This document shows positions 1 through 12,034 of a stretch of 64,000 nt of DNA, piece by piece. The position numbers and the translations under genes were made by a program. Source of the stretch: an uncultured Clostridia bacterium (GTDB lineage Bacteria; Bacillota; Clostridia; Oscillospirales; Ruminococcaceae); NCBI GenBank assembly GCA_947626165.1, contig CANQRG010000005.1, forward strand, positions 62,001 to 126,000. The letters run 5' to 3'. Positions within the stretch are counted from its first letter, which is position 1, and the number at the start of each line of letters is the position of its first letter. The notes below the pieces were generated by a model that was not told the DNA's origin, ran no database searches, and saw only the letters and a list, made by a program, of their open reading frames with translations.

Positions 1-27
1 GTTTAGACAGAAAAAGGTGGTAAAAAT

Positions 28-222
28 ATGCCTGCTAGTAAAGCAAAGATAAGAGCAAATGACAAGTATAATAAAAAGCACTATGATAGTATGATTATAA
101 GAGTTCCAAAAGGTAAAAAGGAAAAGATAGTAGCTCATGCAAATGAGTATGATATATCTTTAAACAAGTTTCTTAATCGTGCAGTTGATGAAACTATGGA
201 GAGAGATAAAAATAATGTATAA
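28..222 (+). CDS. Small Arc-like ribbon-helix-helix protein
   Basis: A 64-residue basic protein. Residues about 15-58 fit a ribbon-helix-helix (Arc/MetJ) fold: a short beta-like stretch (MIIRVPKG) followed by two predicted helices, the pattern of small DNA-binding repressors or antitoxins. The start is ATG with an AAGGTGG ribosome site 10 bases upstream. The gene at 348-533 is a diverged paralogue sharing the KYNKK-Y motif before the beta strand. No toxin-like partner is visible beside it, but the window begins only 27 bases upstream. Its likely role is transcriptional regulation; the target is unknown. Confidence 0.8.
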   Translation: MPASKAKIRANDKYNKKHYDSMIIRVPKGKKEKIVAHANEYDISLNKFLNRAVDETMERDKNNV

Positions 223-262
223 TTGATAATGGAAAATGGATAATGGATAATTAATGTTATAA
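221..262. repeat. AT-rich GATAATGGATAAT repeat, copy A
   Basis: This AT-rich stretch directly after the RHH gene contains tandem GATAATGGA/TAATGGATAAT units. The same words occur at 1079-1100 (inverted), 4588-4612 and 7871-7924. All four copies are intergenic. Copy A begins at the stop codon of the upstream gene. Confidence 0.6.
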
Positions 263-310
263 TAAATCATTTTTCCGCCTCTTTCATTACTTCTTCAAAA
301 TCCACTAAAT
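261..310 (-). pseudogene. Remnant of the small helical gene at 4633-4845
   Basis: This stretch matches two separated pieces of the gene at 4633-4845: its 3' end (from about 4627 to 4649) joined directly to an internal piece (4794-4820). The joint falls on the 7-base word GCCTCTT, which occurs at both edges of the missing part (4643-4649 and 4787-4793) in the intact copy, so a 144-base deletion between short direct repeats explains it. The 5' end with the start codon is also gone, so it should not be expressed. Confidence 0.75.
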
Positions 311-347
311 AATAAAATATAATTGTATTGAAAGGTTGGTAGAACAT

Positions 348-533
348 ATGGGAAAGACATCAACAGCAAGTAAGCACAAGTATAATAAAAAGGCTTATGA
401 AAGGGTCGTTTTAACTGTAAAAAAGGGCGATAAAGAAAAGATCTTTAAAAAAGCATCAGAGCTTGGAAAGAGTGTAAACGCATATATTAAAGACTTAATC
501 AACGCAGATACTAATGGAATGTTAAAGGATTAG
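348..533 (+). CDS. Small Arc-like ribbon-helix-helix protein
   Basis: This 61-residue protein is paralogous to the one at 28-222: KYNKKAYE, then a beta-type stretch (VVLTVKKGDK), then two helices, which suits an Arc-type DNA-binding fold. A TTG at 336 opens the frame, but ATG at 348 is the better start: the AAAGGTTGG site sits in the same place relative to this ATG as AAGGTGG does in the first paralogue. It lies 13 bases upstream of a small XRE regulator, probably in one transcript. It may be a repressor or an orphan antitoxin; no function is shown. Confidence 0.8.
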   Translation: MGKTSTASKHKYNKKAYERVVLTVKKGDKEKIFKKASELGKSVNAYIKDLINADTNGMLKD

Positions 534-546
534 TGGAGGCGGTAAT

Positions 547-768
547 GTGCCAATAAAATATAAAATTAATGTTTTAGCAGAATTAAAAGCTATTGGATAT
601 TCTACATATAGGTTAAGAAAAGAAAAAATTTTCGGAGAGCGGACTATGCAAAAATTCAGAAAAGGAGAGATAGTCAACGCTGAAAATCTTGCGGTTATAT
701 GTAAGCTGTTAAACTGTCAGCCTGGAGATGTTATGGAGTATGTAGATGAAGATGAAACTAACATTTAA
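547..768 (+). CDS. Small XRE-family (Cro/CI-type) regulator
   Basis: A 73-residue single-domain helix-turn-helix protein of the small Cro/CI class (HTH_26 type). The helix-turn-helix covers residues about 14-60, and the tail contains CQPGDVMEYVDEDE, conserved among such regulators. The start is GTG (Val-Pro-Ile) behind a strong GGAGG, spaced 7 bases. It belongs to a set of four paralogues (547, 844, 5002, 5407). Its closest relative is the protein at 5002-5220, which shares the C-terminal 17 residues almost exactly and similar 3' flanking DNA. It probably binds operators like those at 4878-4964; that is inference. Confidence 0.85.
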   Translation: MPIKYKINVLAELKAIGYSTYRLRKEKIFGERTMQKFRKGEIVNAENLAVICKLLNCQPGDVMEYVDEDETNI

Positions 769-843
769 TTATTAAGATACAGAGCTATGTGTTGGGTCTA
801 AATCAGAGTAATCTAAGATATTTGTCAAAGGAAAGTTTACATA

Positions 844-1050
844 ATGCCTATAAGATATAAAATTAATGTTTTAGCAGAATTAAAAGCAAAAGGCTATAAT
901 ACATCACGTTTAAGAAAAGAAAAATTATTGGCAGAAGCAACAATACAACTATTGAGACATAACCAAATTGTGTCTTACAAGAATATTTCAAGACTCTGTA
1001 AATTACTTGAATGTGATATAGGTGATATTTTAGAGTATAGGGAAGATTAA
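844..1050 (+). CDS. Small XRE-family (Cro/CI-type) regulator
   Basis: A 68-residue small helix-turn-helix regulator paralogous to the 547 and 5407 genes (it opens MPIRYKINVLAELKAKGYNT). The 45 bases upstream (from AGAGTAATCTAAGATATTTG to the start) are nearly identical to those before the 5407 gene, ribosome site AAAGGAAAG included. The 76-base gap after the previous XRE gene matches the start and end of the 5221-5406 gap but lacks its middle, so the two XRE pairs descend from one duplicated two-gene block. Target unknown. Confidence 0.85.
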   Translation: MPIRYKINVLAELKAKGYNTSRLRKEKLLAEATIQLLRHNQIVSYKNISRLCKLLECDIGDILEYRED

Positions 1051-1078
1051 ATGTATATAAGGTGGTAAAATTATTTTT

Positions 1079-1100
1079 ATTATCCATTATCCATTAATTG
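1079..1100. repeat. AT-rich ATTATCCATTATCC repeat, copy B
   Basis: A short inverted-orientation copy of the GATAATGGATAAT family (read here as ATTATCCATTATCC). It sits between the second XRE gene and the DUF2953 gene. Just upstream, at 1061-1071, is AGGTGGTAAAA, matching the ribosome site of the RHH gene at 28 but with no gene after it, so this junction looks like a scar of an earlier rearrangement. Confidence 0.55.
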
Positions 1101-1115
1101 AAAGGGGTTGGTAAT

Positions 1116-2027
1116 ATTATAGCTTTGTATATAATTTTAGGAATTATATTAGCGATATATATTATTCTGCGCCTTTCGGTGACGGTATCGTATCATGCAA
1201 ACAGTGTTACCGACGAGATCAAGCTGTCGGCAAAATGGCTGTGGTTCACCATTTACCCAAGACCTGATAAGCCGTCAAAGACAATCAAGATAAAAAGCAA
1301 AAAGAATAAAAAGAAGTCAAAAAAGTCAAAGCAGACGTTTGAGGAAAACCTATCTGAAATTGAAGAAGAGTTTACAGAGCTGACCGAGGACGAGCTGGAC
1401 GAGAAAATAAGTTCTTTGGAAAAGGAGCTTGAGAGGCAAGAGCAAAAAGTAAAGCAGGCAAGTGAAATTCCAAAGACGGATAAAAAAATCAATGCTGAGA
1501 AAGCTAAGAATGAAAAAAACAAGAAAGATAAAAAAGAAAAGTCTGAAAAGGACAAGCCTCAGGAGAGCGGTCTTAAGGCTAAGATAAATAATATTCGCCG
1601 TCGATGGGGAATATATAAAGACTTTATCCCGATGACGTGGAAGTCATTCAGAAAGCTGTTAAAGCAAATTCGTTTTTACGACACAGAGATAGAGATAACC
1701 GCAGGAAAGGACGACGCTTACGACGCTGCAATGAATTACGGCAGACTAAATGCGGTGCTGTTTCACGGGCTTGGGGTAGTAGGAACAATTTTCACTCTAT
1801 ACAAGCCGAAAAGGGCAGAGGTCAAATGCGTTTTCGACAAAAAGGTGTTTGAGTACGAGATTTCGGGCAAAATAAAGGTAAGACCAAGTACCGTTTTGGG
1901 AATAGTAATAGTATTCGGAATTAAATTTTTATATCTATTTTTGAAAAAGCGTCACAAGGCAAAGAAGCAATACAAATTAAAGCGTAAGCTTATGATAAAT
2001 AATAAGGAGTTGTTAGCAAATGAATGA
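1116..2027 (+). CDS. DUF2953 (YtfI-like) membrane protein
   Basis: A protein of about 303 residues. It has an N-terminal membrane helix (IIALYIILGIILAIYIIL), a highly charged Lys/Glu linker of about 100 residues, then a DUF2953-like domain ending in a second hydrophobic stretch and a basic tail. It overlaps gerW by 8 bases, as ytfI precedes ytfJ/gerW in other Firmicutes, so a role in the spore or forespore envelope is likely but unproven. The start is odd: the frame opens with TTG at 1098, yet the ribosome site AAAGGGG (1101-1107) lies inside the frame downstream of it. At proper spacing stand only ATT (1116) and ATA (1119); the next TTG is at 1125. I place the start at ATT 1116. Confidence 0.8.
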   Translation: MIALYIILGIILAIYIILRLSVTVSYHANSVTDEIKLSAKWLWFTIYPRPDKPSKTIKIKSKKNKKKSKKSKQTFEENLSEIEEEFTELTEDELDEKISSLEKELERQEQKVKQASEIPKTDKKINAEKAKNEKNKKDKKEKSEKDKPQESGLKAKINNIRRRWGIYKDFIPMTWKSFRKLLKQIRFYDTEIEITAGKDDAYDAAMNYGRLNAVLFHGLGVVGTIFTLYKPKRAEVKCVFDKKVFEYEISGKIKVRPSTVLGIVIVFGIKFLYLFLKKRHKAKKQYKLKRKLMINNKELLANE

Positions 2028-2394
2028 TAACGGTTTGGAGAGACTTGTTGAAACAGCAATGAAGAAAATTCACGAGCTTGCGGACTGCGAGACTGTTGTC
2101 GGCAAGCCAATAATCGCAGACGGCACGACAATAATTCCTATATCAAAGGTATCTGTAGGGTTTACATCGGGGGGCTCTGATTTACCTACAAAAGGCTCAA
2201 AGGAGATGTTCGGCGGCGGAACGGCAGGAGGAGTATCGTTACAGCCGCTTGCCTTTATAACAATTACAAACGGGGAAGTCAAGCTGTTACAGATGTCGGT
2301 AAATGCAAGCAAAGAAAATGCGCTTATAAATATGATTCCTGATGTTATAGACAAGATAACCGACTTTATCAATAACAGAAAAAGCGACGAATAA
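2020..2394 (+). CDS. gerW: GerW family sporulation protein (YtfJ)
   Basis: A 124-residue protein of the GerW/YtfJ family, a spore protein needed for normal germination in Bacillus. Visible family features are the N-terminal helix, the TTIIPISKVSVGF strand, the glycine-rich GGGTAGG turn and the C-terminal VIDKITDFI helix. The ATG lies behind AAGGAG and overlaps the end of the DUF2953 gene, suggesting translational coupling. The pair gerW then dacF is a conserved Firmicutes neighbourhood. Expression in the sporulating cell is expected from the family, but I see no clear sigma-F promoter here. Confidence 0.93.
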   Translation: MNDNGLERLVETAMKKIHELADCETVVGKPIIADGTTIIPISKVSVGFTSGGSDLPTKGSKEMFGGGTAGGVSLQPLAFITITNGEVKLLQMSVNASKENALINMIPDVIDKITDFINNRKSDE

Positions 2395-2477
2395 TATCAA
2401 ATTTAATAATAATAAGACAAAATGTATTTTTTCTGGTTAAGTGTGCATAATTATCTTAGAAATGAGGTGCACTATTA

Positions 2478-3611
2478 ATGAAAAAAATACTTAGTCTTTT
2501 TACTATATTAGCGGTTACATTCAGTTGTTTTGGGTTTTCTGTTACAGGTGAAGCCGCGTCTACATCTGCAAAGGCGGCAATTTTAATAAACGCTGAAAAC
2601 GGCAAGGTTCTGTACGAACACAATTCAGAAACAAAGCTTCCAATGGCAAGCACTACAAAGATAATGACAACATTGCTGGCTATAGAAAACGGCAAATTGG
2701 ACGAGCAATTTAAGGTAGATGAGAACGCAATAAAGGTCGAGGGCTCGTCTATGGGGCTTAAAAGCGGAGACATTGTCACTATGAGGGCGTTGTGCTATGG
2801 TATGATGCTCCCAAGCGGTAACGATGCGGCAAATGCGACGGCTGTAAGGGTTGCGGGAAGCGTTGAGAAGTTTGTTTCTATGATGAATAAAAGAGCAGAC
2901 AAGCTGGGTCTTAAATCCACTCATTTTGTCACGCCGTCGGGTCTTGACGATTATACCGACGACCATTATTCAACGGCCTCCGATATGGCAAAGCTAACAG
3001 CATATGCTCTTAAAAACAAAATCTTTGCAGAAATTTGCTCAACCAGAAGCGCTAAGCTGAAATACGGAAATCCTCCTTATGAAAGGTGGCTTGCAAACAC
3101 CAATAAACTTATGGCGTCCTGCAAGGGGGTTTTTGGAGTTAAGACAGGCTTTACCGATAAGGCGAGAAGATGTCTTGTGTCTGCTTGCAGACGAAACGGT
3201 ACAACCCTTATTTGCGTTACGCTGAACGACCAGAACGACTGGGCTGACCATTCAAATCTTTACGATTTCGGTTTTTCACAGTATAAAAGCGTATCACTTT
3301 CTCCAAAGGTAAATTCATTTAAAGCGCCGATAGTAGGAGCGCAAAAGGATACGGTTTCCGCAAGCTGTGAGAATGAGATAAAGCTAAGCGTATATAAAGA
3401 TGACGCTGAAAGGATTACACAGCGCGTTGTTTTAAATAAGTTAAACTATGCTCCGATTGCAAAGGGCGAGAAGTTAGGGTATGTGAGATACTATATAGAT
3501 AACATTTTAGTTGGTCAGACAGAAATAAAAGCCAATGAGAGCGTTAAGGCAAAAGCGTCGGAGAGAACGGCGTTCGGCAGGTTTATACAAAGGGTTTGGA
3601 GATTAATATAA
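2478..3611 (+). CDS. dacF: D-alanyl-D-alanine carboxypeptidase (DacF/DacB-like)
   Basis: A 377-residue penicillin-binding protein of the S11 serine peptidase family. It trims the terminal D-Ala from peptidoglycan stem peptides outside the membrane. Residues 1-27 form a signal peptide. The three catalytic motifs are present: STTK (Ser58, Lys61), SGN (113-115) and KTG (222-224). A C-terminal beta-rich PBP5-type domain follows, and the last 25 residues can form an amphipathic anchoring helix. Its place between gerW and rluB matches the dacB/dacF position in sporulating Firmicutes, so it may shape spore cortex. Confidence 0.93.
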   Translation: MKKILSLFTILAVTFSCFGFSVTGEAASTSAKAAILINAENGKVLYEHNSETKLPMASTTKIMTTLLAIENGKLDEQFKVDENAIKVEGSSMGLKSGDIVTMRALCYGMMLPSGNDAANATAVRVAGSVEKFVSMMNKRADKLGLKSTHFVTPSGLDDYTDDHYSTASDMAKLTAYALKNKIFAEICSTRSAKLKYGNPPYERWLANTNKLMASCKGVFGVKTGFTDKARRCLVSACRRNGTTLICVTLNDQNDWADHSNLYDFGFSQYKSVSLSPKVNSFKAPIVGAQKDTVSASCENEIKLSVYKDDAERITQRVVLNKLNYAPIAKGEKLGYVRYYIDNILVGQTEIKANESVKAKASERTAFGRFIQRVWRLI

Positions 3612-3655
3612 TGAGAACAGGATAAACCTGTTCTATACATATGAAAGGTAAATAG

Positions 3656-4375
3656 ATGGAAAAAACAAGGATTCAAAAAATAATTGCTGACGCAGGTTAC
3701 TGCTCACGCAGAAAGGCTGAGGAGCTTATATCACAGGGCAGGGTAAAAGTTAACGGCAGACCCTGCAAGCTTGGCGACAAGGCATTTGCCGGCAAGGATC
3801 TAATTTCAATCGACGGTGAAAAGCTATACACTCCGAGAAAGAGAAAGCTGTACTATATAATGCTCAACAAGCCCAGAGGGTACGTTACCACAATGAGCGA
3901 CGAGTTCGACAGGAAAAATGTTTCAGATTTGATAACAGGCATTCCCGAGCGTGTTTATCCTGTGGGAAGACTGGATAAAAATTCGGAGGGTATGCTTCTG
4001 TTTACAAACGACGGTGCTTTCGCTAACGATATTATGCATCCCTCAAATCACGTTACCAAAACCTATCGTGTTACGGTGCGCCCTGATATAACCGACGAGC
4101 AGTTGGTAAGGCTTTCTGAGGGCGTTGAAATTGACGGTCAGATGACCTTGCCCTGTACTATAAACGTACTTACGAAAGAGCCTGGCAGGGTAGTTTTGCA
4201 AATGGTTATTCGTGAGGGCAGAAATAGACAAATAAGAAAAATGTGCGAGGCTGTTGGTTTGGAGGTCGCAAGGCTTAAAAGAACGGCTATAGGTCCTCTT
4301 AAATTAGGTATGCTAAAGCCGGGCGATTACAGAGAGCTTCAGCCTGATGAGCTTAGAGCTATCAGACAACGGTGA
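3656..4375 (+). CDS. rluB: 23S rRNA pseudouridine synthase (RluB/RsuA family)
   Basis: A 239-residue pseudouridine synthase of the RsuA/RluB/E/F family. Residues 1-60 form an S4 RNA-binding domain (RIQKIIADAGYCSRRKAEELI). The catalytic domain carries GRLDKNSEGMLL with the nucleophilic Asp107, followed by the GRNRQIRKM motif near the C terminus. The position downstream of scpB/gerW/dac genes is typical of Firmicutes RluB, which modifies the peptidyl-transferase region of 23S rRNA. RluB versus RsuA cannot be decided rigorously from sequence alone. Confidence 0.93.
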   Translation: MEKTRIQKIIADAGYCSRRKAEELISQGRVKVNGRPCKLGDKAFAGKDLISIDGEKLYTPRKRKLYYIMLNKPRGYVTTMSDEFDRKNVSDLITGIPERVYPVGRLDKNSEGMLLFTNDGAFANDIMHPSNHVTKTYRVTVRPDITDEQLVRLSEGVEIDGQMTLPCTINVLTKEPGRVVLQMVIREGRNRQIRKMCEAVGLEVARLKRTAIGPLKLGMLKPGDYRELQPDELRAIRQR

Positions 4376-4587
4376 CATTGCACCGACGAACCGCCGGCGG
4401 CTCTGTTGCCTATTAAAAGTTTTATTTAATGTTTTACGTTTCAAAACGGCAGACTTGTACTTTGTGGGAAAGGTTAGTTCTAGCTTCTTGCTTATAACTT
4501 CTATTCTCTAAACGGTGACCCCTGCACGAAGTGCCGCCTTTGGGCAGTTTGATAAATGTTATAGTTTGTGTAACGGCGGGGTTATTA
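4376..4587. other. Gene-free spacer with imperfect direct repeat
   Basis: I find no convincing reading frame here. The block ACGGTGAC...TGCAC at the end of rluB (4369-4386) recurs at 4514-4531 with a GC-rich tail (GTGCCGCCTTTGGGCAG), which stands out from the AT-rich surroundings. A GC-rich self-complementary CCGCCGGCGG lies at 4391-4400 and may serve as a weak rluB terminator, although no U-tract follows. Confidence 0.4.
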
Positions 4588-4625
4588 ATTGATAATTGAT
4601 AATGGATAATTTATAATTATTGCTG
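4588..4625. repeat. AT-rich GATAATGGATAAT repeat, copy C
   Basis: This copy, with ATTGATAATTGATAATGGAT, lies just 3' of the small minus-strand gene at 4633, exactly as copy A lies beside its remnant at 261-310. Repeat and gene end therefore moved together when this block was duplicated. Confidence 0.6.
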
Positions 4626-4632
4626 TAATAAA

Positions 4633-4845
4633 TCATTCTTCCGCCTCTTGCATAAGTTTATTACAATGTTCACTCAATTTTGAGGCTTCGTCTGCTAAAC
4701 ATTCAAACGCTCCTTTGAAAACATCGTTTTCAAAGGAATTGATAAAGCATAATAAGCATACCTGAGCAAGTCCTGATAACATTTCAGCCTCTTTCATTAC
4801 TTCTTCAAAATCCACTAAATGTATAGCTCTAAACTTCTTTTTCAT
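4633..4845 (-). CDS. Small helical protein divergent from XRE regulator
   Basis: A 70-residue protein, almost wholly alpha-helical by composition, acidic, with a Cys-rich central helix (QVCLLCF). I do not recognise the family. The frame is open further upstream, but the ATG at 4845 has an AAGGAAGTG site at good spacing and is preferred. It is transcribed away from the XRE gene at 5002, across a control region with three matching operators; the first lies between the -10 and -35 boxes of this gene's own promoter. A deleted copy survives at 261-310. It could be an antirepressor, a cofactor of the XRE protein or an antitoxin-like partner; this is inference. Confidence 0.7.
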   Translation of the reverse strand: MKKKFRAIHLVDFEEVMKEAEMLSGLAQVCLLCFINSFENDVFKGAFECLADEASKLSEHCNKLMQEAEE

Positions 4846-4873
4846 TGATGTCACTTCCTTTTTATTTATTCTT

Positions 4874-4902
4874 ATTTTATCACAAGATATAGTGATATTC
4901 AA
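4874..4902 (-). promoter_or_regulatory. Promoter of the 4633 gene, overlapped by operator O1
   Basis: Read on the minus strand there is a -35 TTGAAT (4897-4902), a 17-base spacer and a -10 TAAAAT (4874-4879). Operator O1 (4878-4897) fills the spacer, so a bound repressor would block polymerase. Confidence 0.6.
4878..4897. promoter_or_regulatory. Operator O1, TATCAC-N8-GTGATA
   Basis: A perfect 6-base inverted repeat with an 8-base spacer. It is the first of three sites of form TRTCAC-N8-GTGAYA in this intergenic region, centred near 4887.5. Confidence 0.7.
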
Positions 4903-4910
4903 TCGGTAAT

Positions 4911-4930
4911 TGTCACAAATATAAGTGATA
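4911..4930. promoter_or_regulatory. Operator O2, TGTCAC-N8-GTGATA
   Basis: The second site of the same form, with one half-site mismatch. It is centred near 4920.5, 33 bases (about three helical turns) from O1, so proteins on O1 and O2 would sit on the same face of the DNA. Confidence 0.7.
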
Positions 4931-4944
4931 ATTTTTGTGTAATT

Positions 4945-4964
4945 TGTCACTTTAAATAGTGACA
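4945..4964. promoter_or_regulatory. Operator O3, TGTCAC-N8-GTGACA
   Basis: The third site, with perfect 9-base arms when the flanking T/A bases are counted. It is centred near 4954.5, 34 bases from O2. It covers a possible -35 (TTGTCA 4944-4949) for the rightward XRE gene, whose -10 would be AATAAT at 4968-4973, consistent with autorepression. Confidence 0.7.
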
Positions 4965-5001
4965 AAAAATAATTATATTAATCTAAAATGAGGTGAAAAT
5001 T

Positions 5002-5220
5002 GTGCCAATTAAATATGATAAACTTATAAAGCGACTACAAAAAGCAGGAATTACAAGCTATACTATAAAGCGTGATAAAATAATAGGTCAAGCGACTTAC
5101 AAAAAAATTTTTGAGGGTGGAGATATTGATACTAGAACAATAGCAAAGCTATGTAAAGTTTTAAATTGCCAGCCTGGAGATATTATGGAATATGTAGATG
5201 AAGATGATACTAATATTTAA
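5002..5220 (+). CDS. Small XRE-family (Cro/CI-type) regulator
   Basis: A 72-residue HTH_26-type Cro/CI-like regulator. A GTG at 4993 is in frame, but GTG 5002 is preferred: it gives the Val-Pro-Ile-Lys-Tyr opening shared with its paralogues and sits 5 bases after AGGTGA. The helix-turn-helix covers residues about 12-58, and the tail CQPGDIMEYVDEDDTNI nearly equals that of the protein at 547-768. It lies immediately right of three operator dyads and divergent from the gene at 4633, so it is the most likely protein to bind them and to repress its own promoter. Confidence 0.85.
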   Translation: MPIKYDKLIKRLQKAGITSYTIKRDKIIGQATYKKIFEGGDIDTRTIAKLCKVLNCQPGDIMEYVDEDDTNI

Positions 5221-5406
5221 TTATTAAGATACAGCGCTATGTGCTGGGTCTTAATGTTTATACGACTTTTGTTTTGTATATTTATATTTTACACTGATAT
5301 ATGTGCAATATCAATTGACAATATAGACAAAGATTGCTTTAATTTTTGTTTATAATACACTAAAACTAGAGTAATTTAAGATATTTGTGAAAGGAAAGTT
5401 TACATA

Positions 5407-5622
5407 ATGCCTATAAAATACAAGATTGAAATTATTTCCGCTTTAAAAAAAGCGGGCTATAATACAAATACTATACGAAAGGAAAAGCTCCTTTCAGAGG
5501 GTACACTTCAAAGTTTAAGAAACGGGAAATATATTTCTATGGATGCCATATCAAAAATATGTAAGTTATTAAATTGCCAGCCAGGAGATATTATGGAATA
5601 TGTTGACGAAGACGAAAACTAA
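5407..5622 (+). CDS. Small XRE-family (Cro/CI-type) regulator
   Basis: A 71-residue small helix-turn-helix regulator, the second gene of the right-hand XRE pair. Its upstream 45 bases match those of the 844 gene, including the AAAGGAAAG ribosome site. The C-terminal CQPGDIMEYVDEDE is shared with the 547 and 5002 proteins, and its ends read as a mosaic of the paralogues, hinting at recombination between copies. The 186-base gap before it holds no gene. Confidence 0.85.
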   Translation: MPIKYKIEIISALKKAGYNTNTIRKEKLLSEGTLQSLRNGKYISMDAISKICKLLNCQPGDIMEYVDEDEN

Positions 5623-5646
5623 TATTTAATATAAGGAAATAACGCT

Positions 5647-6030
5647 ATGTTAGAGATTTTACAAACAAAAAACAAAGAAAATTACAGAAACAAAATAACA
5701 GAGTTGGGTCTTGACTTTGAAACGACCTTTGTTGTAGATGCTACCGACGAGGGGAGTTCTATCGGGTTTGGCATATACCATTTCGGTATTGACGAGGAGT
5801 ATGAACCTACAGTCGAGGTAGATTTTGTTCAGGATAATTCCGACGTTATGCTGTTTGACGGCATAATACGCTCGATATTATTTCTTGCAATGATGAAAGG
5901 AATAGATAAAGCGAGGTTTAATATTTCACAAACTGACACACTTTCAAAGTTGGGTTTTGTGCAAAATAATTATAATTGTCTTAACTCTATTACTAAATTT
6001 ATGTCTAAATGTAAAAGTTGCGAAAACTGA
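5647..6030 (+). CDS. Hypothetical protein, possibly GNAT-like
   Basis: A 127-residue acidic protein. Its second half (DGIIRSILFLAMMKGIDKARF...LSKLGFVQ) resembles the C-terminal part of GNAT acetyltransferases, where a helix follows the acetyl-CoA loop and a strand ends in LGF. The usual Q/R-x-x-G-x-G/A loop is not obvious, so acetyltransferase activity is uncertain. It follows the last XRE gene by 24 bases and may share its transcript. The carboxyltransferase promoter begins just after its stop. Confidence 0.6.
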   Translation: MLEILQTKNKENYRNKITELGLDFETTFVVDATDEGSSIGFGIYHFGIDEEYEPTVEVDFVQDNSDVMLFDGIIRSILFLAMMKGIDKARFNISQTDTLSKLGFVQNNYNCLNSITKFMSKCKSCEN

Positions 6031-6041
6031 CAGTTATATTC

Positions 6042-6070
6042 TTGTCAAATAAGAGAATTTGTAGTACAAT
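6042..6070 (+). promoter_or_regulatory. Promoter of the carboxyltransferase operon
   Basis: TTGTCA (6042-6047), a 17-base spacer and TACAAT (6065-6070), followed by a start codon at 6138. The -10 is embedded in the perfect palindrome ACAATA-G-TATTGT (6066-6078), a possible repressor site. Confidence 0.6.
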
Positions 6071-6137
6071 AGTATTGTGAAAATTTTACCTTTTGGCTTT
6101 AATACTTAATACTTAATTTAAGAATGGAGGAAAATCA

Positions 6138-7487
6138 ATGGCTAAGGATTCTATCTCACTTTCTGCAAGAGATAGGCTGGCACGTTTGTTTGACGGCGGT
6201 GAATTTACCGAGCTTGACGCATATGCGAAGGTATCGGATAACTTGTCTGGAGTAATAACGGCATACGGTTATGCAGACTCTAACCCGGTTTATGCATTTG
6301 CTCAGGACATATCTGTCAACGACGGTGCTTTAACAAGGGTTCAGGCTGAAAAGATTTCTAAAATATACGATATGGCGGCAAAGACAGGGATTCCTGTTGT
6401 GGGTATTTACGATTCTTTTGGTGCAGATTTGAACGACGGTATTTCAGCAATGACGTCTTATGGTGATTTGATACTTAAAGCGTCAAATCTTTCCGGAGTT
6501 GTACCGCAGATTTCAGTTATCGCAGGGACCTGCGCAGGAGCAAGTGCAATTTTGGCAGTGTCGGCAGATTTTGTGGTGATGTCTAAGAAAGCCGAAATGT
6601 TTATAACTCCTAACACAAAGGTTAAGGACTTAGCCCAGAATGCGGCTGAAAACGGAACGGCTTCACTTCTTGCAGAGAACGACGAGGATGCGATAGAAAA
6701 GGCAAAGGAGATTTTGCTAAAGCTGCCTCAGAACAATTTATCTCCAGTTCCGATGTTTGAATTTAACGAGCCTGATGGAGCTTACTCTGATAACGCAGAG
6801 GGTATTGTAAAAGCTGTCTGTGATTTAGAAAGCGTAATTGAGTTATCAAGTGATTTCGGTAAGGTAAGTTATACTGCTTTGGCTTCTATGGGCGGAGCGA
6901 CGGTAGGCATTTGTGCGACCAATAAGACAAACGACAAGCTAACTTCCTCTGACTGTACAAAGATTGCAAGATTTGTCAGAACCTGCGACGCTTTTGCAAT
7001 TCCGATAATCACGTTTGTAGACACAGAAGGCTTTGACAATAGCGAGTGCGCAAACAAATCGGGAGCTGTTTTGCAGATGGCGAAGCTAGCGTCCGCATAT
7101 GCTGAGGCTACGACGATAAAGATTTCGGTTATAACAGGCAAGGCTTACGGACCGAGCTTTATAACGCTGGCGGGCAAGGGCTCAAACGCAGATTTGGTTT
7201 TTGCTGTAGAAAATGCGGTTATCTCGGCATTAGAGCCTTTAGCAGCAGTTGAATTTTTAAGTCACGATAAGCTAAAGGGAACAGACGATTTAGCTAAGTC
7301 GAGAGAGGCTTTGGTTGATGAATACATTAAAAAGGAAGCGTCTGCTCAAGTTGCCGCTGAAAAGATGTGCGTAGATGGGTTTATTACCTCAGGTGAGATA
7401 AGGCAGACTCTTATCAATGCTATAGAAATTATGGCAGGCAAGAGAGTTTCAAGGCTTCCTAAGAAGCACAGCAACAGCCCGTTTTAA
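6138..7487 (+). CDS. Biotin-dependent acyl-CoA carboxyltransferase subunit (MmdA/12S-like)
   Basis: A 449-residue two-domain crotonase-fold carboxyltransferase. The N-terminal half carries the SLSARDRLARLFDGGEF opening and an oxyanion-type CAGASAI segment; the C-terminal half has the second acyl-CoA/biotin site (GKAYGPSFITLAGKGSNADLVFA). Such subunits move a carboxyl group between an acyl-CoA such as methylmalonyl-, propionyl- or acetyl-CoA and biotin. It is shorter than typical propionyl-CoA carboxylase beta or 12S subunits (about 500 residues). It starts an operon with a biotin carrier and a pyruvate/oxaloacetate carboxyltransferase. The exact substrate cannot be read from sequence. Confidence 0.88.
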   Translation: MAKDSISLSARDRLARLFDGGEFTELDAYAKVSDNLSGVITAYGYADSNPVYAFAQDISVNDGALTRVQAEKISKIYDMAAKTGIPVVGIYDSFGADLNDGISAMTSYGDLILKASNLSGVVPQISVIAGTCAGASAILAVSADFVVMSKKAEMFITPNTKVKDLAQNAAENGTASLLAENDEDAIEKAKEILLKLPQNNLSPVPMFEFNEPDGAYSDNAEGIVKAVCDLESVIELSSDFGKVSYTALASMGGATVGICATNKTNDKLTSSDCTKIARFVRTCDAFAIPIITFVDTEGFDNSECANKSGAVLQMAKLASAYAEATTIKISVITGKAYGPSFITLAGKGSNADLVFAVENAVISALEPLAAVEFLSHDKLKGTDDLAKSREALVDEYIKKEASAQVAAEKMCVDGFITSGEIRQTLINAIEIMAGKRVSRLPKKHSNSPF

Positions 7488-7515
7488 ATAAATTAAATTG
7501 ATAGGTGGTTTTTAT

Positions 7516-7869
7516 ATGAAAAGGTATAACATAACTGTAAACGGAAAGATATACGACGTAGCCGTTGAGGAGGCAGGCAGTGATTCTGCCATGGCTTCAT
7601 CAGCACCTGTTCAGACAGCGTCTTCTGCACCTGCTCCTACTGCTCCTATTGCAGACGGAACAAAGGTTTCTGCGCCTATGCCGGGAACTATACTTGACAT
7701 TAAGGTTTCGGTTGGAGACACGGTTTCGGAGGGTGCGCCTTTGTTTGTTCTTGAGGCAATGAAGATGGAAAACGACGTCAATGCTCCTTGTTCCGGAAAG
7801 GTAGTCAGCGTTAATACAACTAAGGGTTCAACTGTTGAGACAGGAACGGTGCTTGCAGTAATAAATTAA
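7516..7869 (+). CDS. Biotin carboxyl carrier protein
   Basis: A 117-residue biotinyl carrier. Residues 1-20 form a beta segment typical of oxaloacetate/methylmalonyl-CoA decarboxylase carriers. An Ala/Pro-rich swinging linker (21-47) and a biotinyl domain with the EAMKMEND motif follow; Lys83 is the biotinylation site. A TTG at 7498 would lengthen it, but ATG 7516 has AGGTGG at ideal spacing. It sits 28 bases after the acyl-CoA carboxyltransferase gene and must carry CO2 between that enzyme and the one encoded at 7997. It corresponds to the 1.3S subunit of transcarboxylase or the gamma/delta carrier of decarboxylases. Confidence 0.93.
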   Translation: MKRYNITVNGKIYDVAVEEAGSDSAMASSAPVQTASSAPAPTAPIADGTKVSAPMPGTILDIKVSVGDTVSEGAPLFVLEAMKMENDVNAPCSGKVVSVNTTKGSTVETGTVLAVIN

Positions 7870-7870
7870 T

Positions 7871-7930
7871 AATTGACAGTTGATAATGGATAATTAATTG
7901 TCAATTTTCCATTATCAATTATCCATTTAA
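7871..7930. repeat. Palindromic AT-rich repeat, copy D
   Basis: The fullest copy of the GATAATGGATAAT family. TTGATAATGGA (7880-7890) pairs with TCCATTATCAA (7908-7918), and AATTGACA (7871-7878) matches TGTCAATT (7899-7906), so the element can fold into a hairpin. It lies between the carrier and the OadA-like gene inside the operon and might affect mRNA stability or subunit ratio. Confidence 0.65.
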
Positions 7931-7996
7931 AATTGTTCTTTATTAATTAAATCTTAATTACTATTTTCAATTCTACTTTTGAAGGAGTATTATTAT

Positions 7997-9394
7997 ATGG
8001 CTAAGGTTAATATTACAGAAACAGTTTTAAGAGACGCTCATCAGTCGCTTATTGCAACAAGAATGTCTATCGACGAGATGCTGCCTATTTTATCGACAAT
8101 GGATAAGATAGGTTTTCATTCGTGCGAGGTTTGGGGCGGAGCAACCTTTGATTCTTGTCTTAGATTTCTTCATGAAGACCCTTGGGAAAGACTTAGAACA
8201 ATTAGAAGGGAAATGCCAAATACAAAGCTTCAAATGCTTTTCAGAGGGCAGAATATGCTCGGCTACCGTCATTACGCCGATGATGTACTTGAGTATTTTG
8301 TTCAGAAGACTGTTGCAAATGGTATTGATATCATAAGAATTTTCGACGCTCTTAACGATATAAGAAACCTCGAAACTGCGGTGAAAGCCGCTAAAAAAGA
8401 GGGCGCTCACGCACAGATCGCTATTTCTTACACGTTGGGAGACGTTTTCACAGACGAATACTATGTTGATTACGCAAAGAGAATTGAGGCGATAGGCGCT
8501 GATTCAATTTGCATAAAGGATATGGCGGCACTGCTCACACCTTATGCTACCGAAAAGCTAGTCAAGGCAATAAAATCTGCGGTTAAGATTCCGCTTCAGC
8601 TACACACTCACTATACATCAGGATTGGCTTCAATGTGCCTGTTAAAGGGTGTTGAGGCAGGTGTTGACGCTATTGACACTGCTATGTCGCCGCTTGCTTT
8701 GGGTACTTCTCATGCGCCTACTGAGTCAATGGTTGCGGCATTGCAGGGTACAGAATACGACACAGGTCTTGACCTTGTTAAGCTCAACGAAGTAAGAGAT
8801 TACTTTATGACGCTTCGTCAGAAGTATCTTGACAGCGGTCTGCTTGACCCTAAAATGCTTGCTACAGATGCTAATGCACTCATATATCAGGTTCCTGGCG
8901 GAATGCTTTCCAATCTGCTTTCGCAGTTAAAGCAGGCAGGCAAGGAGGATCAGCTCAACGACGTTTTAAAGGAAGTACCAAGAGTTAGAAAGGATTCGGG
9001 TTATCCGCCGCTTGTTACGCCGACTTCTCAAATTGTGGGAACGCAGGCAGTGTTTAACGTAATTATGGGCGAGAGATACAAGACTGTAACTAAGGAGTTT
9101 AAGGGACTAGTCAAGGGAGAATACGGCAAGACGCCTGTTGAGATTTCTCCTGAGTTCCAGAAAAAGATTTTGGGAGATGAAAAGCCTATAACTTGCCGTC
9201 CTGCCGACTTGATAGAACCGGAGCTTGATAAGCTGAGACAGGAATGTTCTGAGTGGATAGAGCAAGACGAGGACGTTTTGAGCTATGCGCAGTTCCCGAA
9301 GGTTGCGCCGAAGTTCTTTGAGGAGAGACGAGATAAAAAACTGGGTATTGATATGGCTCATTCTAATACAGAAACAAAGGTACATCCCGTCTAG
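7997..9394 (+). CDS. Pyruvate/oxaloacetate carboxyltransferase (OadA / PycB / 5S-like)
   Basis: A 465-residue TIM-barrel carboxyltransferase that exchanges a carboxyl group between oxaloacetate/pyruvate and biotin. Conserved features are TVLRDAHQS (Asp13 metal ligand), the GATFDSCLRFL and RGQN segments, Lys174 in the IKDMA motif (the carbamylated Lys in relatives), metal ligands HTH (203-205), and the C-terminal conserved PYC/OADA domain. No biotinyl domain is fused; the separate carrier at 7516 supplies it. ATG 7997 is chosen over an earlier in-frame codon because GAAGGAG lies 9 bases before it. No OadB/MmdB sodium-pump gene is nearby. Confidence 0.92.
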   Translation: MAKVNITETVLRDAHQSLIATRMSIDEMLPILSTMDKIGFHSCEVWGGATFDSCLRFLHEDPWERLRTIRREMPNTKLQMLFRGQNMLGYRHYADDVLEYFVQKTVANGIDIIRIFDALNDIRNLETAVKAAKKEGAHAQIAISYTLGDVFTDEYYVDYAKRIEAIGADSICIKDMAALLTPYATEKLVKAIKSAVKIPLQLHTHYTSGLASMCLLKGVEAGVDAIDTAMSPLALGTSHAPTESMVAALQGTEYDTGLDLVKLNEVRDYFMTLRQKYLDSGLLDPKMLATDANALIYQVPGGMLSNLLSQLKQAGKEDQLNDVLKEVPRVRKDSGYPPLVTPTSQIVGTQAVFNVIMGERYKTVTKEFKGLVKGEYGKTPVEISPEFQKKILGDEKPITCRPADLIEPELDKLRQECSEWIEQDEDVLSYAQFPKVAPKFFEERRDKKLGIDMAHSNTETKVHPV

Positions 9395-9423
9395 AGGTAA
9401 AAAATATAAATATAAAGAAACAG

Positions 9424-9462
9424 GAAATCGTTCGGTTTATCTGAGCGATTTCTTTATTTTTA
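9424..9462 (+). terminator. Terminator of the carboxyltransferase operon
   Basis: GAAATCGTTC (9424-9433) pairs with GAGCGATTTC (9443-9452) with one G-U pair, followed by a T-rich tract. Confidence 0.8.
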
Positions 9463-9550
9463 ATAGCGTTGCCTATTGTTTTGTATTTCTAACCTCTTGC
9501 CTCTAACCTCTAATAGGTCATATAGCGTCGTTCTGTTTCAGTCTCTCTGT

Positions 9551-9579
9551 TTGCATAATAATTAAAAGTGTGATATTAT
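9551..9579 (+). promoter_or_regulatory. Promoter before the transglutaminase-like gene
   Basis: TTGCAT (9551-9556), a 17-base spacer and TATTAT (9574-9579), 38 bases before the start codon. Confidence 0.55.
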
Positions 9580-9617
9580 TAAATTATCATTTATCTAATT
9601 AATAGGGGTTAAATAAT

Positions 9618-10499
9618 ATGAATATAAGATTTGCATTATCATCTATAACCACATTAATAATTTCTCTAACGATTTTAACTTCTGTAATGACCTCTTTCGC
9701 TTCGGATTGTTCTTCTGCTTCAACTGTTTCAATGCCGCCGTTGAAACCTTCTGCAGAGATGAAACTTACAGAAATTGCACCGAGATCACAGAAGGTTCAA
9801 AAAGGAAAGTGGACGGAGAAAAAGAAGAAAATACGTTATTTACGGGCTAACGGAAAAATGGCTAAGGGCTTTACTGAAATAGACGGTAAATGTTATTATT
9901 TTGATAAGAATAGAGTACAGCGTACCGGTTGGCAGAAAATCAAAGGCGATTATTATTTTTTCAATATCAAGAATGGTAAAAATGGTTATATGGTTAAAAA
10001 TAAAAAAGTGGATGGTATTTTACTGAAAAAGAATGGAAAAGCAAAATTGACCCGTGACAGCCGCAGCAAGCTGAATGTTCTGATTAAGGCGAACAAAATC
10101 GTTGAGAAGATCACAAAACCTCTAATGAAAAAGTCGCAAAAATTAAAGTCTTGTTTTAAATATACGATAACAAAATTTGAGTATCGGGGTTCTCCAAAAT
10201 TTTATAAGACAAAAAATTGGGACAGAGATTATGCACTTGATATGTTTGATGACGGACATGGGAGCTGCTATGCATATGGCGCCGCATTTGCATATCTAGC
10301 GAACGCGGTAGGGTATGAAAATGTCTGCGCCGTATCCAGCGGCGGACATGGATGGGCAGAGGTAAACGGAAAAATATACGATCCTTCATGGGAAATTACA
10401 GATAAAAAGCATAATTATTATGCAATGGCTCCTGACCTTAGCGGAGTAGGTGGCAGACCCAATTACCAGAAATATCGTACTTATGTGATAAAAGTATAA
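9618..10499 (+). CDS. Secreted transglutaminase-like protein with cell-wall-binding repeats
   Basis: A 293-residue exported protein. Residues 1-30 form a signal peptide. Residues about 60-145 contain degenerate choline/glucan-binding (CW_binding_1) repeats: KGFTEIDGKCYYFD, RTGWQKIKGDYYFF and VDGILLKKNGKA. The C-terminal half is a transglutaminase-like cysteine peptidase domain with a plausible Cys-His-Asp triad: Cys in GHGSCYAYG, His in GGHGWAEV and Asp in YDPSW. It probably acts at the cell surface, cross-linking or cleaving amides in proteins or peptidoglycan peptides. It has its own promoter and sits 24 bases before ispF. Confidence 0.85.
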   Translation: MNIRFALSSITTLIISLTILTSVMTSFASDCSSASTVSMPPLKPSAEMKLTEIAPRSQKVQKGKWTEKKKKIRYLRANGKMAKGFTEIDGKCYYFDKNRVQRTGWQKIKGDYYFFNIKNGKNGYMVKNKKVDGILLKKNGKAKLTRDSRSKLNVLIKANKIVEKITKPLMKKSQKLKSCFKYTITKFEYRGSPKFYKTKNWDRDYALDMFDDGHGSCYAYGAAFAYLANAVGYENVCAVSSGGHGWAEVNGKIYDPSWEITDKKHNYYAMAPDLSGVGGRPNYQKYRTYVIKV

Positions 10500-10523
10500 C
10501 CAAATTTCAAAAAGGTGATTTTT

Positions 10524-11003
10524 ATGAGAATAGGTCATGGATATGATGTTCATAAACTTGCAGAGGGCAGAAGGCTTATTTTAGGTGGAGTTGAGATACC
10601 GTTTGAAAAAGGCTTACTCGGACACAGCGACGCAGATGTTTTAATTCACGCTGTTATGGATTCATTACTCGGAGCGTGCGTTCTTGGAGATATTGGAAAG
10701 CTGTTTCCTGATAATGATGAAAATTACAAGGGGGCAGACAGTATAAAGCTTTTAAAAGAGGTTTATAGTTTAATAAATAGCAGGGGATATACTGTTTTGA
10801 ATATTGATTCAACTATTTGCTGTCAGGCGCCGAAACTAGCGCCTTATATAAATAAGATGAGAGCAAATATCGCTAAGGCATTACAATGTGATATTGACTG
10901 CATTTCCGTAAAGGCAACTACCGAGGAAGGTCTTGGGTTTACAGGGGCAGGAGAGGGGATTTCTGCAACTGCGGTTTGCCTGTTAAAAAGCGATCAAAGA
11001 TAA
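10524..11003 (+). CDS. ispF: 2-C-methyl-D-erythritol 2,4-cyclodiphosphate synthase
   Basis: A 159-residue IspF of the non-mevalonate isoprenoid pathway, which cyclises CDP-ME-2-phosphate to MEcPP with loss of CMP. The zinc ligands are present: Asp8 and His10 in GHGYDVH, and His42 in IHAVMD. The LGHSDADVL and [11 protein letters not shown] motifs are also conserved. ATG 10524 with AAAGGTGA upstream is preferred over a GTG three codons earlier that overlaps the ribosome site. It is separate from ispD here, while dxs and ispA lie elsewhere in the window (42339, 41346). Confidence 0.97.
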
Positions 11004-11006
11004 ATT

Positions 11007-11038
11007 AAGGCGGTAAGATAAGTTCTTACCGCCTTTTT
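11007..11038 (+). terminator. Terminator after ispF
   Basis: AAGGCGGTAAG (11007-11017) and CTTACCGCCTT (11025-11035) form a strong stem followed by Ts. It may also stop leftward transcripts of the convergent small gene. Confidence 0.9.
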
Positions 11039-11058
11039 AGATAATTGCCGTTTTCTTT

Positions 11059-11241
11059 CTAATCTTTTTTGTTGTTATTGTTAGATAAATTAGCAACTAG
11101 TAAAGTTAGATTGGATACAAGAAGTGCTGCAAATGCTAAATATTGATCGTCGTCGCTGAAAAATTGATAAATAAGCCCAGCTAGGCTGACCAATACTGTT
11201 AATAAAGAAAGACAAACAGGCACAGTAAATATTTTTTTCAA
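11059..11241 (-). CDS. Small two-helix membrane protein
   Basis: A 60-residue protein with two predicted membrane segments (about residues 7-28 and 34-53) joined by a short acidic turn (SDDDQ), and an Asn/Lys tail. It starts with TTG behind a near-perfect GGAGGTG. It lies 34 bases after dapB on the same strand, so it is probably the last gene of the lysine operon transcript. No family recognised; the strong ribosome site argues it is real. Confidence 0.7.
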   Translation of the reverse strand: MKKIFTVPVCLSLLTVLVSLAGLIYQFFSDDDQYLAFAALLVSNLTLLVANLSNNNNKKD

Positions 11242-11275
11242 AGTTTACACCTCCGTTCTTTTAAATTAAAACGTC

Positions 11276-12034
11276 TTATTCGTTAGCAATCATTTTACTC
11301 ATATCATAAAGTCCTGCTGACTTATCACTGATAAAAATAGCTGCGTTTACAGCGCCTACTGCAAAAACCTCTTTTGAGTGTGCCTCATGTTTAAGGGAGA
11401 TTACTTCGTCACGCCCTGCGAAAATTATTTCGTGCTCGCCTACTATCGTTCCGCCCCTGATTGCGTGCATACCTATTTCAGTTTTAGAACGCTTTTTTCT
11501 TACCGAATGACGGTCATAAGTCAACGAGTAGTTGTTGCCCAGTTCCTCGTTAATTGCGTCTGCAAGCATAAGAGCCGTTCCCGACGGAGCGTCGATTTTC
11601 TGGTTGTGATGCTTTTCTACGATTTCAATGTCAAATTGTCCGCCTAAAATCTGTGTAGCTTTTCTTGCAAGCTGTGCCAAAAGATTTATGCCAAGTGACA
11701 TATTGAAAGTGAAAAACACAGGTATCTGTGAGGATGCTTTTTTTATTTTTGCAATTTGATCGTCTGTATATCCTGTTGTTGCAATAACAAGAGGAGTTCC
11801 GTTTGTCTGGCAGTAATCCAAAAGATCGTCTAAAACGCTGGGGTGAGAAAAATCAATAATAACACCTGGCTTTGCTTTCAAATCAGACACCTTTGGTACA
11901 ATCGGGAAATCAGCATATGTATCTGTAATTTTATCAATTCCTGCGACAATTTTGCAGTTGTCTCTTGAAGAGACAACATCGCAGATAACCTTTCCCATTT
12001 TTCCGTTTGCACCGCATACAGCAATATCAGTCAT
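11276..12034 (-). CDS. dapB: 4-hydroxy-tetrahydrodipicolinate reductase
   Basis: A 252-residue DapB that reduces the DapA product with NAD(P)H in lysine/diaminopimelate synthesis. The N-terminal Rossmann motif is VCGANGKMG (about 6-14). The catalytic EKHHNQKIDAPSGTAL segment holds the active-site His pair and Lys. ATG 12034, after AAAGGAC, is chosen over an in-frame start six codons upstream. It is third in the asd-dapA-dapB operon under lysine riboswitch control. Diaminopimelate feeds cell wall, and dipicolinate for spores derives from the DapA step. Confidence 0.97.
   Translation of the reverse strand: MTDIAVCGANGKMGKVICDVVSSRDNCKIVAGIDKITDTYADFPIVPKVSDLKAKPGVIIDFSHPSVLDDLLDYCQTNGTPLVIATTGYTDDQIAKIKKASSQIPVFFTFNMSLGINLLAQLARKATQILGGQFDIEIVEKHHNQKIDAPSGTALMLADAINEELGNNYSLTYDRHSVRKKRSKTEIGMHAIRGGTIVGEHEIIFAGRDEVISLKHEAHSKEVFAVGAVNAAIFISDKSAGLYDMSKMIANE

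Follow-up and report, generated by a model that had tools for sequence, protein, structure and literature searches.

The region between two divergent small genes, at 4633 to 4845 and 5002 to 5220 of the window (the whole 64,000-nucleotide stretch of DNA that was analysed), is likely the control switch of a two-gene cassette, in which a regulator of the HTH_26 family would repress both itself and the gene it faces, and whose operators would belong to a set of exchangeable locks that extends across the genus. The gene it faces encodes a 70-aa protein; EFF is the working name that we give here to this left-hand gene and its family. A preliminary description of the DNA had proposed a lambda-like divergent switch; the main interest of the region lies beyond that comparison, in the genus-wide set of locks. 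If our reading is right, this set is a natural library of insulated repressor–operator pairs within a single promoter frame, one that arose through the exchange of modules and can be read directly from sequence, as well as a test bed for the divergence of regulator specificity and for the replacement of one DNA-binding fold by an unrelated one at one promoter. It raises the question of why a gut bacterium with a 1.8 Mb genome maintains some twelve small genes of one kind and gives each a lock of its own.

Three proposed operators in a divergent intergenic region

The features of the region, with the evidence for each in brackets, are the following:

4633..4845, minus strand: EFF, 70-aa acidic protein (genus distribution, structure model, dN/dS of 0.14)
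4874..4879, minus strand: –10 box TAAAAT of the leftward (EFF) promoter (consensus scan; frame recurs in other units)
4878..4897: operator O1, TATCAC-N8-GTGATA, TATCACAAGATATAGTGATA, in the –35/–10 spacer of the leftward promoter (exact match; core conserved at 6/6 class-A loci)
4897..4902, minus strand: –35 box TTGAAT of the leftward promoter (consensus scan; frame recurs in other units)
4903..4922, minus strand: conserved stretch upstream of the leftward –35 box (cross-unit consensus TTTGTGNATTTTGCCTA)
4911..4930: operator O2, TGTCAC-N8-GTGATA, TGTCACAAATATAAGTGATA, upstream of the leftward –35 box (exact match; core conserved at 6/6 class-A loci)
4944..4973, plus strand: possible rightward promoter TTGTCA-18-AATAAT, overlapped by O3 (consensus scan only)
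4945..4964: operator O3, TGTCAC-N8-GTGACA, TGTCACTTTAAATAGTGACA, over the possible rightward –35 box (exact match; core conserved at 6/6 class-A loci)
5002..5220, plus strand: class-A HTH_26 (PF13443) regulator, 72 aa, GTG start (E=7e-12, 45.8 bits against a cut-off of 22)

Much of what the preliminary description had reported about this layout was borne out. O1, O2 and O3 match TRTCAC-N8-GTGAYA with zero mismatches and start 33 and 34 bases apart; the leftward promoter TTGAAT-17-TAAAAT, with 9/12 consensus matches, is present and spans O1; and the gene on the right encodes a Cro/CI-type regulator, its HTH_26 domain scoring well above the Pfam cut-off. By analogy with other HTH_26 genes, this gene most likely starts at the GTG at 5002, which places O1 105 bp from the regulator start and 33 bp from the EFF start. 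The rightward –35 box that had been suspected under O3 fared less well: TTGTCA-18-AATAAT is found there, but a scan of 4560–5420 returned nine promoter-like sites where 5.4 are expected by chance, making the case for this possible promoter weak and not clearly above chance.

The exact motif does not occur beyond O1–O3 in the window or in the whole genome to which it belongs (G000; 1,836,353 bases, 16 contigs), and with one mismatch allowed, 12 further matches in G000 compare with nine for the reversed control. As the motif was derived from O1–O3 themselves, the uniqueness of these copies is a post hoc observation; the independent evidence for the motif is its conservation at the other five class-A loci. 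A wider class-A regulon in G000, which we had considered as a candidate, was not seen: with no exact operator copy beyond the regulator's own locus, no regulon is visible.

We define class A as the HTH_26 regulators with the recognition-helix sequence GQATYKK, represented by six loci in six genomes. The preliminary description had named conservation of the dyads beside orthologous HTH_26 genes as its own check, and three dyads were indeed present at 6/6 of these loci, 16/18 sites being exact and the remaining two each differing at one outer base. The starts are spaced 33/34 bases apart, or 33/33 in one locus. Across 15 genomes of the genus, we counted 20 exact matches—16 at class-A loci and four strays spread over 3/15 genomes—against one for the reversed control. 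Within the sites, the TCAC/GTGA cores were invariant (0/24 columns variable, versus 15/64 of the other intergenic columns; Fisher p=0.009), while over all 60 operator columns, eight of them variable, the difference from the other intergenic columns was not significant (p=0.17). In genomes G005 and G012 the class-A regulator with its three sites adjoins, as judged by eye, a mere relic of an EFF start, and in G004 it adjoins an EFF of a different subfamily. When upstream regions were aligned by regulator class, genes that have a promoter of their own were pooled with genes that lack one, so the alignment tells us most about class A.

From this arrangement we infer binding, repression and autoregulation by the class-A regulator. 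The HTH_26 protein encoded at 5002–5220 would bind each of the three dyads in dimeric form. Between the –35 and –10 boxes, at O1, it would block RNA polymerase and so shut off the EFF promoter, and at O3, with O2 between, it would limit its own transcription. The outcome would be a self-limiting repressor with one private target. Extended to the other units, comparison of sequences supports this regulatory logic well, and each regulator most likely represses EFF and itself.

Operator spacers follow regulators and move among sites

We mapped 72 stretches and used the 68 first-in-line units with enough flank, leaving out the second member of each tandem EFF pair, copies truncated at the end of a contig, a disrupted copy and a fused copy (G000:C1). 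All 68 first-in-line EFF genes are divergent to a regulator, which is of HTH_26 type in 19 units, of ribbon-helix-helix (RHH) type in 48 and of HTH_3 type in one. HTH_26 shares with HTH_3 the helix-turn-helix fold of Cro/CI type, so the regulators amount to two folds. Two EFF genes seemingly without a regulator face an HTH_3 gene, one of them disrupted near its start and uncounted. The RHH regulators are related to the phage family phrog_13890. The census of EFF is incomplete: a further unit in G005, found through its class-F operator, stands outside the unit counts. The five genus genomes without EFF are likewise uncounted.

When the promoters were compared (55 units, 51 of them distinct), a stretch upstream of the –35 box, TTTGTGNATTTTGCC, proved common to the units, with 0.74 bits per position versus 0.30 further upstream, whereas the promoter spacer was as variable as the background (0.33 versus 0.30 bits per position). 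The promoter boxes themselves scored 1.09 and 1.27 bits per position, a conservation that is partly built in since units were aligned by their matches to those boxes. Over all 68 units, the mean dyad score of the spacer was 5.9 versus 3.9 in shuffles, with the dyad beating 95% of its own shuffles in just 29/68 units and class-D dyads being poor. As read from these alignments, the units thus have a common promoter frame and a variable, often dyad-bearing spacer.

The identity of this spacer follows the regulator, not EFF. Our pairwise comparison covered 62/68 units and 1,891 pairs, after dropping units with an unclear promoter call, a spacer of 16 or no HTH_26 or RHH partner. Mean spacer identity over all pairs was 42.0%. 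It rose to 86.6% where the adjacent regulators were at least 90% identical (50 pairs) and stood at 88.5% when such regulators faced EFF proteins less than 60% identical (26 pairs); where EFF proteins were at least 85% identical and the regulators less than 70% identical or of another type, it was 41.8% (143 pairs). Mantel correlations between regulator and operator were 0.56 for the 19 HTH units and 0.42 for the 43 RHH units (p=0.001 each), versus 0.09 (p=0.118) and –0.03 (p=0.74), respectively, between EFF and operator. HTH_26 recognition-helix classes pair with distinct spacers, and the operator patterns of two further classes were found only at loci of their own class: in 15 genomes, 6/6 matches to the class-F pattern lay at class-F loci and 4/4 matches to the class-D pattern at class-D loci. 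One class-F match, in G005, led us to a previously missed unit, where a regulator of class F stands opposite a divergent EFF that belongs to another subfamily. Among the RHH regulators, identical strand sequences face different spacers (six for RLEMQVPKG, two for RIEMRVPIG), so that a spacer cannot always be matched clearly to the RHH gene beside it. Operator and regulator are swapped as one module, independently of EFF, and in this way the EFF copies can be regulated separately from one another.

Close to the class-A switch, the window contains further regulators and the genes that border its chromosomal site:

28..222, plus strand: RHH-type regulator of the neighbouring unit (E=4.9e-15 to phrog_13890, 3.8e-5 to the Arc-like phrog_582)
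348..533, plus strand: second RHH-type regulator, belonging to that same unit (E=2.5e-16 to phrog_13890; longer frame 336–530)
547..768, plus strand: class-D HTH_26 regulator (PF13443)
844..1050, plus strand: class-F HTH_26 regulator (PF13443)
3656..4375, plus strand: pseudouridine synthase-type gene, left border (in 15/15 genus genomes)
5407..5622, plus strand: class-G HTH_26 regulator, without an EFF of its own (Pfam; locus map)
5647..6030, plus strand: 127-aa gene, right border (directly after the rluB-type gene in five genomes without the cassette)
6138..7487, plus strand: carboxyltransferase-type gene, right border (in 14/15 genus genomes)

All four HTH_26 genes of the window exceed the Pfam cut-off. 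The class-D and class-F operator patterns are absent from the whole of G000, although the regulators at 547–768 and 844–1050 have been kept: by this pattern search, keys without locks.

The left border gene, which we take to be of rluB type, and the right border gene, presumably a carboxyltransferase, lie near each other in 14/15 genus genomes. Eight genomes carry a counted unit between them, with six distinct spacers; as two of these are class-A variants, the site has held five locks. By eye, G002 retains just an RHH remnant there. Five more distant members of the genus, with rluB-type proteins 80–82% identical, have no cassette at this site, and no EFF was found in them by search. More generally, flanking genes sort 66 units into nine syntenic sites and three singletons, one of the nine (site 1) probably merging two neighbouring sites because two genomes hold two units there. 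Contents are exchanged among these roughly nine sites: we found 28 pairs of identical locks at different sites in different genomes, and none within one genome (65 units). Permuting genome labels within sites gave a mean of 3.19 lock repeats (p=0.024), and permuting all labels over 62 units a mean of 4.9 (p=0.0035), p-values that are indicative only since some genomes are incomplete, five spacers were read by hand and related genomes were treated as independent.

An interspersed and partly AT-rich repeat lies directly downstream of EFF, at 4376–4640. With the low-complexity filter off, similar stretches occur in 53/71 of the remaining mapped segments, many of them where EFF ends at its 3′ side, and the repeat might offer homology for cassette exchange.

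Taken as a whole, these units may form a system of slots, in which about nine fixed sites would hold interchangeable cassettes, each made up of a payload, the constant frame, a private operator and its matching regulator; regulator–operator modules of the two unrelated folds would recombine with variants of the payload, and no lock would be kept twice per genome; we hold this tentatively, as a real possibility rather than a probability. If true, the bacterium would own a repertoire in which each copy of a single effector has its own trigger. Such copies would parallel incompatibility or immunity groups, yet be held together as a set in a single chromosome.

As to function, our best guess for EFF is an effector that is costly and that answers to many separate triggers. 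EFF would then act in defence or stress, each lock being lifted by a different signal, for instance a phage antirepressor; this is a functional layer on top of the exchangeable-lock switch, not an alternative to it. Near-identical EFF proteins of one genome do stand under unlike locks (in 21 pairs, spacer identity averages 40.5% and reaches at most 62%), no lock is repeated within a genome among the units compared, and the RHH regulators resemble phrog_13890, the phage family. Against this, PADLOC yielded no convincing defence family match for EFF, and a selfish cassette that spreads with incompatibility, or the loss of duplicates that recombine, could give the same pattern. We therefore regard the many-trigger layer as possible, but remain somewhat sceptical of it.

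The EFF family and competing readings of the switch

EFF is an acidic and apparently two-helix family, met in no more than a single genus of uncultured Clostridia from the gut. The AlphaFold model predicts helices at residues 2–36 and 40–69 that would form a two-helix hairpin, with moderate confidence (mean pLDDT 79.1, pTM 0.62; the underlying alignment was shallow, with 16 close sequences). The mean pI of 75 distinct EFF proteins is 4.8 (range 4.2–7.7), and the subfamily of the window is under purifying selection (dN/dS 0.14 over 104 pairs). Domain searches recognised no DNA-binding domain. Searches of Pfam, PHROGs, PADLOC and NCBIfam gave nothing convincing (best E 0.008–0.05, each in 1/16 members), a recognisable toxin or defence family included, and the best match among PDB sequences had E=0.071. 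A phage or plasmid origin was rejected, the window's protein being without a match in phage records, plasmid records and viral contigs.

EFF genes were found in 10/150 related genomes (its own included), all of one genus and with two to 13 matches per genome; a profile search then gave 14 members in the window's own genome. Genomes with EFF hold two to 14 copies, many of them nearly identical, at conserved chromosomal sites. In 393 other genomes of the order the profile found no convincing member, the one partial hit being marginal (E=5.4e-4, 33 residues), and of 25 loci with related regulators in other genera, the 20 at which the ORF rule recovered the regulator contained no EFF-like gene. 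A pattern scan of contigs from 84,980 species returned 20 EFF loci, all from uncultured Clostridia in samples called Lapin, a name from which we take the source to be rabbit gut. A word search of the open-access literature, which leaves most subscription journals outside and in which an unnamed family is hard to find, returned no paper on the EFF family or on the arrangement.

Four EFF copies have the same shortened end, three of them being open 22-codon frames and the fourth further damaged:

L074 (G011:C9): one shortened copy
L202 (G005:C4): two shortened copies
L177 (G012:C22): one shortened copy

Their sequences look like the product of a deletion between two similar stretches within the gene, which may have been one old event that spread or several events. 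Some of these relics still adjoin a regulator. Broken copies fit an EFF that is costly when unregulated, without demonstrating a cost.

The persistence of regulators beside EFF relics, together with the pairing of a small acidic protein and a small DNA-binding protein in 68/68 first-in-line units, would also suit a divergent type II toxin–antitoxin system, in which the regulator is an antitoxin that additionally binds and neutralises the EFF protein. RHH and XRE folds, to which the EFF-facing regulators belong, are common among antitoxins. We nevertheless consider this unlikely: in all 68 units the genes are divergent and form no operon, no convincing toxin family match emerged from the four collections searched, and regulators of two unrelated folds serve the same EFF family, which makes direct regulator–EFF contact less likely and suggests that the regulators act on DNA alone.

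More improbable still is the lambda-like bistable switch, in which two opposing regulators would compete for the three operators, committing the cell to either of two states. What stood of this proposal is the presence of three phased operators between divergent genes, as in lambda, and a Cro/CI-type fold on one side; what did not is the pair of opposing DNA-binding regulators, as a recognisable DNA-binding protein is encoded on one side only and EFF is modelled as a helical hairpin that, moreover, faces RHH regulators more often than HTH_26 regulators (48 versus 19 units). The likeness of the half-sites to lambda operators, also raised at the outset, turned out to be superficial, the inner spacing being 8 here versus 5 in lambda. 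While the lambda switch sits in a prophage, the neighbours here are chromosomal genes of housekeeping type that are kept in the genus, and EFF is without relatives in phage records and viral contigs, in agreement with the earlier placement of the locus outside any visible prophage.

Least probable of all is that the operator–regulator correlation reflects physical linkage alone, without functional matching: linkage does contribute, as operator and regulator are neighbours, and some sites hold the same unit in several genomes, but the start of EFF lies closer to O1 than that of the regulator does, so that simple linkage predicts the opposite of what is observed (an EFF–operator correlation is absent), the average dyad score of spacers is above that of shuffles, and class-A cores do not vary whereas their flanks do.

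Likeness to known regulatory systems

The exchangeable locks that we propose resemble several known systems in part. Lambdoid phages carry immunity modules with co-varying repressor and operators. In Cluster A mycobacteriophages, repressor and operator specificity diverge together (PMC6550527). The likeness lies in repressor and operator specificities that vary together to give insulated (heteroimmune) versions of a circuit; the EFF units differ in that many versions reside in one chromosome, that two unrelated regulator folds are used, so that even the fold is exchanged, and that the controlled gene encodes a 70-aa protein, with no phage genes seen.

In the control of restriction–modification by C proteins, which are helix-turn-helix regulators, operator specificity sets incompatibility (PMC3874152). 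The two systems share a small HTH autoregulator (a proposed one here), a potentially costly effector and operator-defined compatibility groups; unlike C-protein systems, EFF units are divergent and the first regulator is an RHH protein in 48/68. No restriction or methylase gene was seen by eye among the ORFs of window positions 1–12000. Omega/PaaR-type repressors of three-component toxin–antitoxin loci act on transcription (PMC3874152). Like the EFF regulators in the role proposed here, these are small transcriptional repressors, there separate from toxin and antitoxin; unlike in those loci, no antitoxin–toxin pair was found here, and EFF is divergent and matches no known toxin convincingly.

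The regulators also share the HTH_26 domain family with VanU-type regulators. Their match to the VanU equivalog model (NCBIfam NF000090) is weak, at 20.3 bits against a cut-off of 150, and among solved structures the top-scoring relative of the HTH_26 set is PDB 3tyr (E=7.8e-9), the VanUg protein. Unlike in the case of VanU, no resistance gene was seen among the neighbours.

Tandem arrays of four to five similar RHH genes oppose EFF at L066, L067, L183 and L192. At L072, a single frame (1345–1728) combines an HTH_26 domain (49.2 bits) with an RHH-like stretch, matched by our own profile only and by no Pfam family, and is possibly a two-domain regulator. The 3′ ends of HTH_26 genes (encoding CQPGDIMEYV; for example 5160–5220 and 5570–5622 in the window) have similar DNA even in classes that differ in their 5′ parts, and this shared end may mark a recombination border.
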